IMG/VR virus record: IMGVR_UViG_3300036393_000004
Span: 1 to 21,771 of that record
Direction: 5' to 3' (one strand)
DNA length: 21,771 bases
Source of the DNA: a virus
Shown here: positions 1 through 21,677 of the stretch, one piece after another
Layout of the letters: each line of letters begins with the position of its first letter
Numbering within the stretch: position 1 is the stretch's first letter
Notes under the pieces: model-generated
Told to the model about the DNA's origin: nothing
The model's database searches: none
What the model saw: only the letters and a program-made list of their open reading frames with translations
Translations under genes and position numbers: made by a program

Positions 1-1
1 G

Positions 2-349
2 GACGGCCGGAGCGTGGAGCTTGCGGACGTCGAGCCGATGGTCCGCGATGCGGTCACCGCGGCCGTCGCGGCGCTGCCGACGCCTCAGGACGGCCGGAGC
101 GTGGAGCTTGCGGACGTCGAGCCGATGATCCGCGATGCGGTCACCGCAGCCGTCGCGGCGCTGCCGACGCCTCAGGACGGCCGGAGCGTGGAGCTTGCGG
201 ACGTCGAGCCGATGGTCCGCGATGCGGTCACCGCGGCCGTCGCGGCGCTGCCGACGCCTCAGGACGGCCGGAGCGTGGAGCTTGCGGACGTCGAGCCGAT
301 GGTCCGCGATGCGGTCACCGCGGCCGTCGCGGCGCTGCCGTCTCCCAAG
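2..349 (+). repeat. Four tandem copies of an 87-bp in-frame repeat
   Basis: Units begin at 2, 89, 176 and 263. Units 1 and 3 are identical over all 87 bp. Unit 2 differs from them at two positions (atc for gtc, gca for gcg). Unit 4 differs only in its last nine bases, where the array exits. The array runs off the left edge, so the copy number is unknown. Near-identity at synonymous positions points to recent expansion or gene conversion. The period is a multiple of three, so copy changes keep the frame. Confidence 0.95.
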
Positions 350-817
350 GATGGTGTCGGTCTCGCCGGCGCGCTGATCGATCGCGGCGGCAATCTGGTA
401 CTGACCTTGACCGACGGTTCGCAGCGCGAGCTCGGAACGGTCGTTGGCAAGGATGCCGACCAGGCGGCCATCGATCGTCAGGTCCGGGAGCTTGTCGCCG
501 AGATACCGAGGCCGCGTGACGGCTTCAGCCTGAAGGATTTCGACACTCACTTCGATGGCGAGCGGACGCTCACCCTCAAATTCGATGGCGGCGATGTCTC
601 CTACGAACACGAAATCCACCTTCCGATCGTCATCTACCGCGACGTCTGGCGCGCTGAGAATGACGACGGGTCGCAGAAGTTCTATGAGCGCGGCGATTGC
701 GTTACCTGGGCGGGGAGCCTGTGGATCGCGCAAGAGCGCACGAGCGAGAAGCCGGACGGCGGGAAGGGCTGGCGCCTGGCCGTCAAGAAGGGCCGTGACG
801 GCAAAAGCGCAACATGA
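2..817 (+). CDS. Fibre-like virion protein with 29-residue repeats and C-terminal carbohydrate-binding-like domain (5' partial)
   Basis: The reading frame is already open at base 2 and the repeat begins there, so the true start lies upstream; the GTG at 14 is only an internal codon. Four near-identical 29-residue units (Asp-Gly-Arg-Ser ... Leu-Pro-Thr-Pro-Gln) are seen, each probably a helix closed by a Pro-x-Pro-x-Asp-Gly turn, a pattern common in trimeric phage fibres and collagen-like spacers. Then follow a beta-rich segment and a module with the pattern YERGD-V-W-G-SLW-A-KP-W-L, which resembles the CBM5/12-like domains found at the ends of phage fibres. It ends in a short GRDGKS tail. Its stop overlaps the next ATG (ATGA, 814-817). 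Lying before the connector genes, it could be a head fibre or a tail fibre; the position does not decide. The fibre role is inference. Confidence 0.7.
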   Translation, partial: DGRSVELADVEPMVRDAVTAAVAALPTPQDGRSVELADVEPMIRDAVTAAVAALPTPQDGRSVELADVEPMVRDAVTAAVAALPTPQDGRSVELADVEPMVRDAVTAAVAALPSPKDGVGLAGALIDRGGNLVLTLTDGSQRELGTVVGKDADQAAIDRQVRELVAEIPRPRDGFSLKDFDTHFDGERTLTLKFDGGDVSYEHEIHLPIVIYRDVWRAENDDGSQKFYERGDCVTWAGSLWIAQERTSEKPDGGKGWRLAVKKGRDGKSAT

Positions 818-1401
818 CCGGATCGCTCGGCTATCGGAAAAACGAAGCCGCCATCCTGCGAGGTGATGTGCCGGAGAAATATCTCCGGATCCTGCCGCAT
901 GTGCCCGGAGACCGGGTTCTGGAGATCGGCTCCGCCGAGGGCGTGCTCGCGCTCATGTTGGCGCGGCAGGGCAAGCGGGTAACAGCGCTCGAGATGCGGG
1001 AGGATCGCGCTGCCGCGGCGCTTCGGCTCAGCGAGCGCTGGGCGCTCAGCTATTCGTTTCAGGAGCCGACATTCGTCGTCGGGCGCATCGACGATCGCCT
1101 GGACCTGCTGGCGGGGATCGAAACGCTCGTTGCCGTTCGCATGATCTATTATCTCCGGGCAGCTCTGGACGTGGTATTCTCGGCGGTGTCGCGGTCGGTT
1201 CCGAATGTCGTGCTCTGCGGCAACAGGAACCGCGCCGAGCGCTTCCACAGCGGCACGCTGACGGCGGACGATGCGCTCGGCGAAATGAACTTCTACGCCG
1301 GCGCCGACGGCATGACCGAGCTGCTGAAGCGCCACGGCTATCGGACCGAGCGCAAGGTCACCGACGGCGATGCGATCGTCGTGGGAAGGAAGGATGTCTG
1401 A
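814..1401 (+). CDS. Class I SAM-dependent methyltransferase
   Basis: This 195-residue protein has the Rossmann motif I VLEIGSAEG at residues 35-43 and an acidic residue closing strand 2 (VTALE, Glu60), the usual ribose-binding position of class I methyltransferases. The rest fits a small single-domain enzyme; the acceptor substrate cannot be read from the sequence. The start overlaps the fibre gene stop (ATGA) and has no clear Shine-Dalgarno of its own, so translation is probably coupled to the fibre gene. The 3' end overlaps the ParB-like gene by 8 bp. With the next two genes it forms a compact cassette inserted in the virion structural module. Family call is firm; role is unknown. Confidence 0.8.
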   Translation: MTGSLGYRKNEAAILRGDVPEKYLRILPHVPGDRVLEIGSAEGVLALMLARQGKRVTALEMREDRAAAALRLSERWALSYSFQEPTFVVGRIDDRLDLLAGIETLVAVRMIYYLRAALDVVFSAVSRSVPNVVLCGNRNRAERFHSGTLTADDALGEMNFYAGADGMTELLKRHGYRTERKVTDGDAIVVGRKDV

Positions 1402-1903
1402 TCCGGTCTGGATCGACCCTGCCAGGATCGAGTTCAAGATTTCGCCAGTCGCCGACCTGCAGGGAATTGTCGCTGGCAATTGGGATTTGCGACGTCGCCA
1501 CGCCCTCGACCGGTCGGTCAAATTTCGCTCGATCGAACAGAGGTTCCGGCGCGGGCGTCGCTGGGAGGAAACCGACCTCTTTCGTCACATCTATGCGCGT
1601 CGCTTCGCGCGCGGCGAACAGGTGCGCGGAGCCAAGACGATAGAGGAGCTGGCCGCTCAGTATTATGGACGGGTCGACGCACTCCACGCTGATCTAGCCC
1701 GCGACGGGTTCCGGCTTCGCAGCGAGCGCGGCAAGCCACATCCGCTGCCCGGCCTGCTGATCGGCCGGTCCGGCGAAATCTTCATCGGAAATCAAGGCAA
1801 CCACCGGCTCGCCATCGCCCGCGTGCTGGGTCTGCGAAATTTTGCTGGAAGGATCGTATGCCGTCACCCGTTATCGACACCGGAACCGTCATCCCGGCTA
1901 TGA
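1394..1903 (+). CDS. ParB-like (ParB/Srx-fold) domain protein
   Basis: This 169-residue protein carries the motif GNQGNHRLAIARVLGL (residues 132-147), which resembles box II of ParB/Srx-fold proteins (G-H-R-R-L-x-A-A type). The N-terminal part (VWIDPARIEF, GNWD, WEET) resembles small ParB-like proteins encoded beside methyltransferase, sulfotransferase and glycan genes rather than plasmid-partition ParB. I chose ATG 1394 over the in-frame GTG at 1370 because GGAAGGAAGG lies just before it and it shortens the overlap. No helix-turn-helix or centromere-binding domain is visible. The gene overlaps the next by 46 bp. Function unknown; ParB-fold proteins can be nucleotide hydrolases or kinases as well as DNA-binding proteins. 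Confidence 0.65.
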   Translation: MSDPVWIDPARIEFKISPVADLQGIVAGNWDLRRRHALDRSVKFRSIEQRFRRGRRWEETDLFRHIYARRFARGEQVRGAKTIEELAAQYYGRVDALHADLARDGFRLRSERGKPHPLPGLLIGRSGEIFIGNQGNHRLAIARVLGLRNFAGRIVCRHPLSTPEPSSRL

Positions 1904-2802
1904 CCACGGATGCGGAACGGGCGCTCTACTATCAGCTCGCGCGAGAAGGAGCCGGGCAGGGCGCCATCGTCGAACTCGGCGCCTGGCTGGGTGCGTCGAC
2001 GGCCTATATCGCCGCGGGCGTCAGGGATTCGGGCGTCGAGACGAAGGCCCACGTCTACGACCGCTTCCTCTCGAAGCCGGGGCACGTCGCCAAGGTCGAA
2101 GCCTTCTATGCGAAGCACGGCGGATCCGGCGATATGCCGCTCGGCTCGTGCTTCGAGCAATTCAAGGCCAACCTCGGTCCTTTGCTCGCGTTCGTCGAGC
2201 CGCATCCGGGCGAGATCGCCTCAATCGAATGGGGCGATCAGCCGATCGCGGTGCTGATCACCGACGCGCCGAAGCGAGTTCGCGAAATCTCCGCCGTCCT
2301 GACACGCCTGCGGCACGCGCTCCGGCCGGGGTCGGTCATGGCGTGGCAGGATTTCTGCCACTTCCCGAGCTATGAGATCCCGGCCTGTCTGTACCGGCTG
2401 CGCTCGTCGCTTCGGTTCGAAGAGGCGGTGGTACCGGGAACGACGCTGGCGTTCCGGTTGACGTCCAACCTGGGCGTCGCGGAGGTCTCAATTGACGCGC
2501 TCGGCCTGCATCGGTGGTCGCCGCAGACCGTCGCTGAAGCCTGGGAATATTGGCTGAACGGCCGCGTCGCTCCCGAGAAGGCTTCGCTCTTCCGCTGCGG
2601 CGCCGCGATGTTCCTCTGCGATATTGGCGAGCCCGATCGTGCCGTGACGTTGCTCCGGGAAGTCTTCGCTGCGGACCTCGAGGCCATCTTGCCGAAGTGG
2701 CAATACCTGCACCGCACGCGGGCCAATCTCGTCACCCGGTACCAGCCGCTGTTCGATTTTCTGGCGCGCGAGGGCGCGCTTTCCACCCCTGAGGAGTTTT
2801 GA
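1858..2802 (+). CDS. Class I SAM-dependent methyltransferase (Methyltransf_24-like) with C-terminal helical extension
   Basis: The 314-residue product has motif I VELGAWLGAST (residues 38-48), an acidic strand-2 end (VYDRF, Asp68), and a later LITDAPK (Asp136) followed by LRPGSVMAWQDF (Asp165), the layout of Methyltransf_24-type enzymes that often act on sugars or small molecules. About 100 residues after the catalytic fold look helical and TPR-like. A GGAAGGA at 1847-1853 precedes ATG 1858, inside the end of the ParB-like gene. It is unrelated in detail to the first methyltransferase of the cassette, so this is not a simple duplication. Substrate unknown; virion or host surface glycan is a guess from context. 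Confidence 0.75.
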   Translation: MPSPVIDTGTVIPAMTTDAERALYYQLAREGAGQGAIVELGAWLGASTAYIAAGVRDSGVETKAHVYDRFLSKPGHVAKVEAFYAKHGGSGDMPLGSCFEQFKANLGPLLAFVEPHPGEIASIEWGDQPIAVLITDAPKRVREISAVLTRLRHALRPGSVMAWQDFCHFPSYEIPACLYRLRSSLRFEEAVVPGTTLAFRLTSNLGVAEVSIDALGLHRWSPQTVAEAWEYWLNGRVAPEKASLFRCGAAMFLCDIGEPDRAVTLLREVFAADLEAILPKWQYLHRTRANLVTRYQPLFDFLAREGALSTPEEF

Positions 2803-2805
2803 TCC

Positions 2806-3213
2806 ATGGCTCTGCAATATTCCGTCGCAGTCCGCAACGCGCGCCTGGACGCGGTCGAGGCCGCCATCGGTGCTTCCGCGATCCTCAAGATCCGCACCGG
2901 CGCCGCCCCGGCCTCGTGCGCCACGGCGGACGCGGGCACCGTGCTCGCAACGCTCAATCTCCCGTCCGACTGGATGGCCGCCGCATCGAGCGGCACGAAG
3001 GCCAAGAGCGGCACTTGGGAGGATTCGAGCGCCGACAATGCCGGCACCGCCGCCCACTTCCGCATTTATGCGAATGACGGGACGACCTGTCACATGCAGG
3101 GCACCATCACCGCGACCGGCGGCGGCGGCGACATGACCGTCGATAACACCAGCTTTGCGTCCGGGCAGGCTTTCACGATCACCGGCTTCACGCTCACCGC
3201 CGGCAACGCCTAG
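2806..3213 (+). CDS. Small beta-rich phage virion-associated protein
   Basis: The 135-residue protein is rich in Ala, Thr, Gly and Ser with alternating hydrophobic strands (ILKIRTG, AHFRIYAN, GQAFTITGFTLTAGNA). I recall it as a type of conserved phage protein found between capsid and connector genes in proteobacterial phages, where it may be a head-decoration or fibre-base protein; this is memory of family resemblance, not a search. GAGGAG at 2791-2796 lies nine bases before ATG 2806. No transmembrane or signal segment is seen. The next gene lies 37 bp downstream. Confidence 0.6.
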   Translation: MALQYSVAVRNARLDAVEAAIGASAILKIRTGAAPASCATADAGTVLATLNLPSDWMAAASSGTKAKSGTWEDSSADNAGTAAHFRIYANDGTTCHMQGTITATGGGGDMTVDNTSFASGQAFTITGFTLTAGNA

Positions 3214-3250: not shown

Positions 3251-5401
3251 ATGGCGCTCACCACCGAAATCCTGAAGGTCGGCGCCTCAAGCTGGACGCC
3301 GCCGGCCGGCGTTACCAGCGTCGATGTGGTCGCCTGCCAAGGGCCGGGCGGCAACGGCTCGCGCGATCGTCAGTCGAACTCAAAGCCGAGCGGCGGCAGC
3401 GGCGGTTTCAGCACCAAGGCCGGCATTTCGGTCACGCCTGGCGTTCCCGTCAGCCTCCAGATCAGCGCAGGCGGCAGCCAGGCTTCCACGTGGTTCGACA
3501 GCACGGGAACCGTTCTTGCCAACGGCGGCGGCAATGCGACCGTTGGGATAGGGACGGGCGTTGCCGGCGCGGCGGCGGCGACTGGCGTCGGCGATCTTGC
3601 CCGCGCCGGCACGGCCGGGCGTACCGGCTGGAGCGGCGATGGCGGCGCAGGCGGCGCAGGCGCTCCCGGCCCCGATGGCGTGGGCGCTCAAGGCGGCAAC
3701 GGTGCTGGCGGAGGGCTTACCCCGGCTCAAGGCGGCGGGGGTGCCAATGGGGGCAGTGCAGGCAGCGATGCCGCAAGCGCGCTGATCGGCGGCGCGGGCG
3801 GCAATAACCGCACCGGATCCGGGGGAGGCGCGGGCGGCAATGCCTCCACCCTTCCGGGCACCGGCACGAACGGCGGCGGATCGGGCGGGGCAGGCAGCAA
3901 CAGCAACGGTGTCACCGCCAGCTACGAGCCGCTGTGGACGGATGATAGCGGCGGAGCGAACAACGGCACCACGATCGGGCCGGGCGGCGGCGGTGGTGGC
4001 GGCCGAGGCAACAGTTCGGTTCCGCAAGCCGGCAATGGCGGCTACGGCGCCGGCGGCGGCGGTCAGCGCGGGTCCGGGACATTCGGAGCGAACGGCGGCG
4101 ATGGCTATATCGTCCTCCAATATGATCCGGATGCCGGCGGCGGCGGGATCGAGGGCGAAGCCGCACTCAACGAAGAGGCCGATACGGCTTCGGCCTCAGC
4201 CGCGCTCGCACTGACCGGAGCGGGATCGATCGGCGAGGCAGCGGACACCCTTTCCGCTCCGGCGGCCGTTGTGATCTCTGGTGCGGTCTCAACCTTCGAA
4301 GCTGACGACGCTCTTTCCGCAAGCGGCGAGGGCGTTCCGCCGATCGAAGGCGAGTTGGCGACAACCGAGGAGGGCGACAGTCTCGGCGGCGTCGGCTCGA
4401 TTGCCGTGGCCGGGCTCGCGACGATCGACGAAGCGGCCGACGGTGTCGTCAGCTCCGGGCTTCTTCCGCTGGCTGCATTCTTGGCCGCGTCCGAGGGTGC
4501 GGACGGACTGGACGCCGCGGGCGCCGGGCTGGTTTCTGGGTCTGTCGATATTCAGGAGGCGAGCGACACCGTCGCATCGTCGGCCGCCCTGTCGATCGTC
4601 GGGCAGATGGTCGCCGGTGAAGCGGACGATGATGTCGAGGGCGCAGCGTCCCTCTTCGTCGCAGCGACTTCGGAAATCGTCGAACAGGGCGACGCGGCGA
4701 CGGGCGCGGGTGCTCTCGTCAACTCGGGAGCGCTGGACGCGTCGGAGGGGGCGGATACTTCGCTTGCTTCGGGCGCCGTTCTTCTCGCCGCGCTGTTGGC
4801 GGTGGAAGAGGTCGACGACACGCTGGATTCGACGGCGGATGCCACAATCCGGACCAACGGGCAGCTCGACGCGACCGAGGCACCGGACCTGGTCAGTTCG
4901 GCGGCCACGCTCGATACCTTCGGGGCGGCATCCATAGTTGAGGCGTCCGATGGCCTCACCTCTACCGGCACCATCCATCTGCTGGGCACGGTCTCGATCG
5001 CAGAGGGCGCCGACACCCTTTCCGCCGAGAATGGCCGAGCCGCCGTGGCCTCGATCACCGAGGGCAATGACGTCCTTTCCGGAACCGGCGGCCTGCGCAT
5101 TCGGGGCAGCGGCGTCATCGTCGAAGAGATGGACGATACCGCGGATGGTGACGCGGCGCTCATGATCTCCGGCATGGTCGCCGCGAATGACAATGACGAT
5201 GTGGTGTCCGGCTCGGCAAGCCTCGCGCTCGTCGGCATCGCCGACGTCGGCGAGGGCGATGACAGCCTGGAGGCCGGCGGTGCCGCCCGCATGATCCCGG
5301 TGCCGCCGTCGCGGACCTCGCTCGCCCCGATCGTGCATCGGGAAAGCGCCGCGCCAGCGATCCCGACCAGCTACGCGCCGAAGCGTTTCGCACAGGGGTA
5401 G
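3251..5401 (+). CDS. Large glycine-rich, repeat-containing virion fibre/adhesin-like protein
   Basis: The 716-residue protein has two parts. Residues about 1-295 begin with a beta segment (TEILKVG, WTPPAGVTSVDVV), pass through long glycine-rich runs and end with GGDGYIVLQYD. This is the layout of glycine-rich tip domains in some phage adhesins, where polyglycine helices pack into a sandwich. Residues about 302-683 are some 18 diverged 21-residue repeats of type G-x-x-x-x-x-E-x-x-D-x-L-S-A-x-x-x-L-x-I-x. The C-terminal 30 residues are Pro- and basic-rich. It lies 3 bp before the connector gene. Base bias towards GGC creates long open frames on the other strand, which are not genes. An adhesin or head-fibre role is inference; the repeat part could be a rigid beta-solenoid stalk. 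Confidence 0.65.
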   Translation: MALTTEILKVGASSWTPPAGVTSVDVVACQGPGGNGSRDRQSNSKPSGGSGGFSTKAGISVTPGVPVSLQISAGGSQASTWFDSTGTVLANGGGNATVGIGTGVAGAAAATGVGDLARAGTAGRTGWSGDGGAGGAGAPGPDGVGAQGGNGAGGGLTPAQGGGGANGGSAGSDAASALIGGAGGNNRTGSGGGAGGNASTLPGTGTNGGGSGGAGSNSNGVTASYEPLWTDDSGGANNGTTIGPGGGGGGGRGNSSVPQAGNGGYGAGGGGQRGSGTFGANGGDGYIVLQYDPDAGGGGIEGEAALNEEADTASASAALALTGAGSIGEAADTLSAPAAVVISGAVSTFEADDALSASGEGVPPIEGELATTEEGDSLGGVGSIAVAGLATIDEAADGVVSSGLLPLAAFLAASEGADGLDAAGAGLVSGSVDIQEASDTVASSAALSIVGQMVAGEADDDVEGAASLFVAATSEIVEQGDAATGAGALVNSGALDASEGADTSLASGAVLLAALLAVEEVDDTLDSTADATIRTNGQLDATEAPDLVSSAATLDTFGAASIVEASDGLTSTGTIHLLGTVSIAEGADTLSAENGRAAVASITEGNDVLSGTGGLRIRGSGVIVEEMDDTADGDAALMISGMVAANDNDDVVSGSASLALVGIADVGEGDDSLEAGGAARMIPVPPSRTSLAPIVHRESAAPAIPTSYAPKRFAQG
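4154..5299 (+). repeat. About 18 diverged 21-residue (about 63-bp) coding repeats
   Basis: Successive segments starting near GEAALNEEADT, GAGSIGEAADT, GSVDIQEASDT, GTVSIAEGADT and GIADVGEGDDS share a Glu-x-x-Asp core followed by Leu-Ser-Ala-type residues and a hydrophobic alternating strand. 382 residues hold 18 units. They are conserved as protein pattern but not as DNA, so they are old compared with the 87-bp array at the left edge. Confidence 0.8.
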
Positions 5402-21491: not shown

Positions 21492-21677
21492 ATGGAGTCG
21501 AATCTTACCTACGTCCGGCCGGTCGCGCCGGTCGCGCCATATATCGGTGGCAAGCGAAATCTCTCCCGCCGTCTGATCGCGATCATTGATCGCATCGAGC
21601 ACGACACCTATGCAGAGCCCTTCGTTGGAATGGGCGGCGTCTTCCGGTATTATGTAGCAATTGCACCAAGGCGATGA
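21492..21677 (+). pseudogene. DNA adenine methylase (D12 class), C-terminally truncated
   Basis: The 61 residues start with the family N-terminus: VAPVAPYIGGKRNLSRRL (SAM-site PYIGGK at residues 16-21) and continue to TYAEPFVGMGGVF (41-51), the FxGxG SAM-binding motif. Intact enzymes of this type run some 250-300 residues and continue with a basic stretch and a later DPPY-type catalytic motif. Here the match ends at Phe51 and the frame closes after RYYVAIAPRR at TGA 21675-21677. Neither other + frame resumes the methylase, so this is a break at about 21645, not a simple frameshift. No Shine-Dalgarno is clear. The fragment cannot be catalytic. Confidence 0.65.

Follow-up and report, generated by a model that had tools for sequence, protein, structure and literature searches.

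A conserved phage head-module cassette of two methyltransferases and a ParB-fold protein, with a putative role in O-methylation of a virion glycan

Phage-encoded glycosylation of the virion is known from a few actinobacteriophages, and ParB-fold proteins have hitherto been read mainly as parts of DNA-segregation or DNA-modification systems. Here we describe a cassette encoding a methyltransferase (MT1), a ParB-fold protein and a second methyltransferase (MT2) in IMG/VR virus record IMGVR_UViG_3300036393_000004; the window analysed is the whole record of 21,771 bases, its 5′ end falling within a repeat-bearing fibre gene. In relatives a glycosyltransferase (GT) normally completes the set. We propose, with a probability of about 0.62, that this is a late-expressed, horizontally exchanged cassette making an O-methylated virion glycan, in which the ParB-fold protein would serve as a nucleoside triphosphate (NTP)-dependent partner of MT2. 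The cassette is of a known kind, that of virion glycosylation, and the ParB-fold component is its new element; within the open-licence literature no published description of it was found.

In phage Corndog an O-methyltransferase gene and three glycosyltransferase genes lie between portal and protease and were proposed to modify the capsid (PMC4351075), and modification of both capsid and tail tube is reported for Corndog-type phages in the passage of PMC11600133 that cites Freeman et al. 2023. The set of Corndog and cluster O (O-methyltransferase gp35, glycosyltransferases gp36-gp37, N-acetylglucosamine (GlcNAc)-transferase gp38) sits in the head module like the present cassette, a likeness of gene descriptions and layout rather than of compared sequences. 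Relatives of the window likewise combine GT and methyltransferases in the head module, whereas the window has methyltransferases only. Corndog differs in that its cluster has no ParB-fold protein (the ParB-like gp90 is encoded elsewhere) and a single methyltransferase, and in its actinobacterial hosts.

Two further phage loci resemble the cassette through their GT. Tetraselmis viridis virus S20 (NC_020840) has a member of the same GT family (40% identity) and two methyltransferases of different families, in a block between the protease/major capsid protein region and Hc1. It lacks a ParB-fold protein, FkbM and Methyltransf_23 proteins replace MT1 and MT2, and there are additional GT-D, GT2 and sialyltransferase-annotated genes. 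The wider slot described below has a cultured relative in the Bradyrhizobium elkanii phage-plasmid pUSDA31-2, where the portal gene is followed by GT9, two methyltransferases and a GT of the cassette family, ahead of the tail genes; here no ParB-fold gene is annotated and the GT is 26% identical. Among cellular systems, the mycobacterial methylmannose polysaccharide (MMP) cluster MeT1-MmpH-pMeT3-ManT comprises two methyltransferases, a hydrolase and a mannosyltransferase (PMC9883506). Like the cassette, it has four genes, of which two encode sugar methyltransferases, one a glycosyltransferase and one a protein whose role was formerly unknown; among solved structures, its MeT1 comes closest to MT2 in fold. 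However, it is not viral, and its fourth protein is a glycoside hydrolase rather than a ParB-fold protein.

Conservation, linkage and position of the cassette

Scanning viral contigs with the individual proteins and a ParB-family profile yielded 46 further contigs with at least part of the set. MT1, ParB and MT2 had identical order and strand in all 43 three-gene contigs (window included; approximately 31 distinct), and among 151 loci collected subsequently by way of portal or glycosyltransferase no ParB gene occurred without both methyltransferases. The first-pass annotation had made its linked pathway depend on these genes being found together elsewhere, which they were. All four genes are under purifying selection (dN/dS 0.04-0.45 over MT1, ParB, MT2 and GT) which, together with the constant order, indicates that the cassette is not a chance arrangement. 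Pairwise distances of MT1, ParB, MT2 and GT correlate mutually (r 0.51-0.73), compared with r from -0.16 to 0.46 against the major capsid protein, portal, protease and TerL, suggesting that the four genes tend to be transferred together.

In six deep lineages (L067, L091, L092, L094, L095 and L098) the ParB domain and MT2 form one open reading frame (ORF) of ~450-480 aa, and these lineages cluster in the tree with support 90/90. Occurrence of the same pair both split and fused is good evidence that ParB and MT2 are direct partners. Invariant order, fusion, co-divergence and joint movement within the head module thus bear out the earlier view of the three genes as one functional unit. As a set they proved real and conserved but incomplete, the GT that normally completes them having been overlooked.

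Gene starts in the relatives were assigned by a simple script. The spacing between ParB and MT2 varies between an overlap of 4 bp and a gap of 531 nt, or gives way to fusion, and the 46-bp overlap in the window was therefore discounted as a special coupling; MT1 and ParB are more consistently close together (23/31, with starts chosen heuristically). Apparent stop codons in the ParB relatives of L016, L028 and L032 were dismissed, as the hit ends ran beyond the gene and the frames are intact. Queries with the ParB-like protein, MT1 and MT2 against annotated phages found no relatives, and two scans of bacterial genomes found no ParB relative, using short peptide patterns that distant relatives may escape.

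The usual gene order is TerL, protease, major capsid protein, small gene, MT1, ParB, MT2, GT, portal, fibre, adaptor, Hc1, neck and tail. The cassette lies between adaptor and Hc1 in L008/L009 and after the fibre gene in the deep lineages and the window, while the stretch of L067 examined showed no head gene. It therefore shifts position but stays nearly always inside the head-neck structural module. The tie to the fibre gene suggested by the first-pass annotation did not survive this comparison: in most relatives the cassette separates the major capsid protein and portal genes and the fibre gene comes after the portal, and relatives of the window's fibre gene are also present in phages without the cassette. 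A fibre-specific role was rejected, as the fibre gene changes position relative to the cassette and adjoins it in some arrangements only.

A protein of 60-120 aa with no assigned function precedes MT1 in most relatives (e.g. L034 4456-4683). The same holds for L008, where the cassette is elsewhere, but its gene also follows the capsid gene in cassette-free phages. In deep lineages a sialyltransferase-annotated or MptE-like ORF lies upstream of MT1 (L091 6762-7361, phrog_4603; L098 6507-7397 and L092 5909-7063, C-terminal parts in the latter two).

Glycosyltransferase, methyltransferases and ParB-fold protein

The best clue to the chemistry of the cassette is the GT. In all 40 contigs that continue beyond MT2, the window excepted, a GT8-like glycosyltransferase follows MT2, directly or past an inserted gene. 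The protein is ~210-240 aa long with an invariant DLD motif and matches phrog_1962 ('glycosyltransferase'); its profile finds GT8 enzymes in the PDB, with Dictyostelium AgtA at E 0.003 and glycogenin weaker. Using the GT as query gave 411 relatives in viruses, and 80 of them were retained. Almost all are adjacent to head or neck genes, including in phages whose capsids belong to unrelated families (phrog_617/10, 247, 264). At loci without ParB, the GT neighbours include GT2, Methyltransf_24 and other methyltransferases, TylF, UDP-glucose/GDP-mannose dehydrogenase, epimerase, hexapeptide transferase, TupA and GT9. Where the GT is missing the slot is usually empty: of 57 phages with a related portal but without the GT, 51 have a capsid-portal gap of at most ~600 bp. 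A head-module slot with exchangeable sugar-modifying genes is shown here for many phages outside the actinobacteriophages and across unrelated capsid families.

Two other genes were seen around the GT. A gene with a phosphoribosyltransferase domain recurs beside it in phages lacking ParB (L205, L220, L221, L239, L242, L249), and a third methyltransferase stands between MT2 and GT in L095 and L098.

MT2 passes the Pfam Methyltransf_24 cut-off (E 8e-7). Its AlphaFold2 model (predicted local distance difference test score, pLDDT, 92.4) is closest to MeT1, with Z 19.5 over 194 residues at 3.0 Å root-mean-square deviation and a sequence identity of only 16%. MycF follows (Z 16.9), and SpnH, NovP and CalS11 also score high, all of them sugar O-methyltransferases. 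On this modelled structure, the fold of MT2 is of the TylF/MeT1-like, metal-dependent sugar O-methyltransferase type. D136 and D165, invariant in 20/20 sequences, are by their position plausible metal ligands. MT2-like domains form parts of annotated glycosyltransferases on cyanobacterial plasmids, and one Nostoc protein chain joins GT4, a second methyltransferase and Methyltransf_24 domains. For MT1, matches to class I methyltransferases all fell below threshold; weak profile matches to protein arginine methyltransferases covered the general S-adenosylmethionine (SAM)-binding core. Neither MT1 nor MT2 matched a DNA-methyltransferase family.

The ParB-like protein matched no Pfam, NCBIfam or PADLOC family, and its single PHROG match was at chance level. 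Structure prediction (AlphaFold2, pLDDT 93.6) and structure search nevertheless confirmed a ParB/Srx fold: the leading PDB matches were Srx, ParB, Noc, KorB, SerK and SbnI, the best at a modest Z of 6.2 over 82 residues, and the top 34 VIA rows all belonged to the ParB/Srx fold family or OSA. SerK (Z 4.6) and SbnI (Z 4.2) match in the core only. The first-pass motif GNxGNHRLAIA is present as GNQGNHRLAIA. GNQGNHR, including G135-N-H-R138, is invariant in 22/22 aligned relatives, and GxHR is kept in the aligned haloarchaeal ones. By motif rather than by coordinates, the invariant Asn136 occupies the position of the catalytic Cys of sulfiredoxin (GGCHR); the protein is not a sulfiredoxin, because Asn replaces this residue. 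The absence of a partition-type DNA-binding domain was also borne out: neither Pfam nor the predicted model revealed a recognised helix-turn-helix (HTH) or dimerisation domain in this 169-aa single-domain protein, indicating that it is not a partition protein.

Proteins with the ParB-CTPase fold bind CTP, ATP or GTP and require the Box II Arg, according to the parts of a 2025 survey used here (PMC12704722), which also list phage ParB-Methyltransf_23 fusions, read as DNA-modifying, and state that some bacterial ParB-methyltransferase fusions bind ATP. By this analogy the present protein likely binds NTP. It has the core fold and the GxHR/GxRR motif in common with SerK, SbnI, sulfiredoxin and the ParB-methyltransferase fusions, but its subfamily is set apart from those proteins by Asn in place of the sulfiredoxin Cys and by a long helical insertion, conserved even among haloarchaeal relatives. 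The partner is moreover Methyltransf_24, and a glycan or head-module context does not figure in the survey's description of the fusions, as far as those parts extend.

Haloarchaeal relatives of the ParB-fold protein share 27-34% identity with it and at six places are almost full length. One in Natronorubrum adjoins sugar transferase, AglF and O-antigen ligase genes, and on two Halobaculum plasmids the relatives are beside epimerase, flippase and glycosyltransferase genes, so that three of several haloarchaeal loci fall within polysaccharide clusters. A glycan role for the ParB-fold protein is plausible. These associations, with those in phages, place a ParB-fold protein firmly alongside sugar methylation and give a testable function to an orphan ParB subfamily common to phages and haloarchaeal surface-polysaccharide clusters. 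Genes for an AAA_33 kinase-like protein and a PAP2 phosphatase were also seen near ParB relatives at haloarchaeal loci of two genera (L100 8803-9633, L101 8806-9621).

Proposed function and alternatives

Under the proposed function, the cassette would be expressed together with the late head genes. The GT8-like glycosyltransferase, present in relatives rather than beside MT2 in the window, would put a sugar on a virion component; MT2 would O-methylate that sugar in a metal-dependent, TylF/MeT1-like reaction, and MT1 would methylate this glycan at another position. The ParB-fold protein would bind NTP and be a direct partner of MT2. It would probably be an ATP-dependent, kinase-type enzyme that shares the substrate of MT2, by analogy with serine phosphorylation by its fold relatives SerK and SbnI; alternatively, it may regulate MT2 as an NTP-dependent switch. 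Kinase activity is conjectured from SerK and SbnI, and the earlier suggestion that the ParB-like protein activates or hydrolyses a substrate is likewise conjectural. We infer that the virion and not the host is the target, and likewise the reactions and the acceptor protein. Among the targets offered by the first-pass annotation, a glycan on the virion is the best supported. A bolder and doubtful extension would make the ParB-fold protein the first of its superfamily in glycan biosynthesis: an NTP-dependent enzyme, conserved between phages and haloarchaeal polysaccharide clusters, whose phosphorylation or activation of a sugar would precede O-methylation by MT2 and lead to an undescribed virion modification.

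Several observations weigh against virion glycan methylation. No GT was found in the 21.8 kb of the window, where a structural protein follows MT2 instead, although the genome is truncated upstream. Distances of the tail tube gene correlate with those of the cassette genes too (0.49-0.76, at most 12 contigs), weakening co-divergence as a stand-alone argument. Catechol O-methyltransferases are mixed among the MT2 matches, such non-sugar enzymes scoring only ~3 Z below MeT1, and MT1 has no clear functional relative. Some haloarchaeal ParB relatives are surrounded by unrelated or transposon-rich sequence, not by glycan clusters. Seven structural proteins showed no Ser/Thr enrichment that would mark an acceptor, nominal p values of 0.03 and 0.05 being lost on correction. 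An integrase match was found in 10 of 15 relatives checked, and the proposal as a whole draws on gene content and models.

The integrase matches make modification of the host surface possible, most relatives checked being probably temperate. Here the cassette would alter a host cell-surface glycan (receptor masking, superinfection exclusion, or progeny release from receptor-bearing debris) and the late operon would provide timing only. Enzymes in the slot are of surface-glycan type, and the cellular ParB relatives in surface-polysaccharide clusters fit this reading too; however, no membrane transferase or flippase was present among the slot families listed, a head-neck location across unrelated capsid families suits products needed at assembly, and the studied precedents with the same layout modify capsid and tail tube, as far as the cited passage goes. 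We consider it rather unlikely. Direct methylation of virion proteins (e.g. at Arg, Lys, Gln or termini), with the GT an unrelated neighbour, appears improbable: the GT follows MT2 in every continuing relative and MT2 is closest to sugar O-methyltransferases, and although MT1 weakly matches arginine methyltransferase profiles, those matches are confined to the SAM-binding core. The window copy, without an adjacent GT, would suit this explanation.

Hypermodification of phage genome bases by the methyltransferases, GT and ParB-fold protein is very improbable and was rejected, as a thymidylate-synthase homologue was present in 0/12 relatives with positive controls (records may be fragments). Its appeal comes from the ParB-methyltransferase fusions common in phages and read as DNA-modifying in the portion of PMC12704722 cited above, and from the occurrence of glycosyltransferases in base hypermodification; yet MT1 and MT2 lack a match to DNA-methyltransferase families, the MT2 fold is like that of sugar and small-molecule O-methyltransferases, and the slot alternatives are UDP-sugar and polysaccharide enzymes. 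A search for TET/JBP oxygenases also matched 0/12 relatives, but its control was likewise silent. Finally, a partition or DNA-clamp protein encoded here by chance would account for the ParB/Srx fold and GxHR motif, but hardly for fusion to MT2 in six lineages or for a single domain lacking a recognised HTH or dimerisation domain, and no ParA gene was seen around the cassette in the contexts examined. With the structure-search result, this role was rejected and is exceedingly unlikely.

Window coordinates and neighbouring genes

The three cassette genes are intact (Table 1), in reading frames and coordinates that agree with the first-pass annotation. Overlaps measure 4 bp between fibre gene and MT1 (814-817, ATGA), 8 bp between MT1 and the ParB-like gene (1394-1401, the latter starting with ATG) and 46 bp between the ParB-like gene and MT2 (1858-1903). 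Starting MT2 at the in-frame ATG at 1900 would reduce the last to 4 bp, although the peptide IPAMTT, upstream of this ATG, is kept in relatives.

Table 1. Features of the cassette and its flanks in the window
Feature	Coordinates	Strand	Description	Remarks
Collagen-like, portal-adjacent fibre/decoration protein, C-terminal part	1..817	+	Neighbour, probably outside the cassette	Open at contig end
MT1	814..1401	+	Small class I SAM methyltransferase, 195 aa, cassette gene 1	Identity to the window 51-62% in an alignment of 23 sequences
ParB/Srx-fold protein	1394..1903	+	169 aa, cassette gene 2; single domain with helical insertion	NTP binding predicted
GNQGNHR motif	1787..1807	+	Box II / P-motif position of ParB-fold protein	
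MT2	1858..2802	+	Methyltransf_24, metal-dependent sugar-O-methyltransferase-like, cassette gene 3	Alternative start 1900; ~100-aa C-terminal helical extension
Virion structural protein (phrog_3758)	2806..3213	+	Flanking gene directly after MT2 in window	

The fibre gene carries four 29-aa tandem repeats (87-bp units, window 14-361), the second, third and fourth being identical to the first at 85/87, 87/87 and 76/87 positions. Since the contig begins at the repeat edge, the assembly probably broke within these repeats. The gene has a profile match to the C-terminal region of phrog_1289/2271 ('portal protein').

Beyond the flanking structural gene, window 3251-5401 holds a 716-aa Gly-rich protein and, after it, degenerate repeats in which EADD-type motifs abound, with no Pfam match and a weak partial relative in L007. 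At the 3′ end (21492-21677) an ORF begins with weak, below-cut-off similarity to the Dam DNA adenine methylase family.

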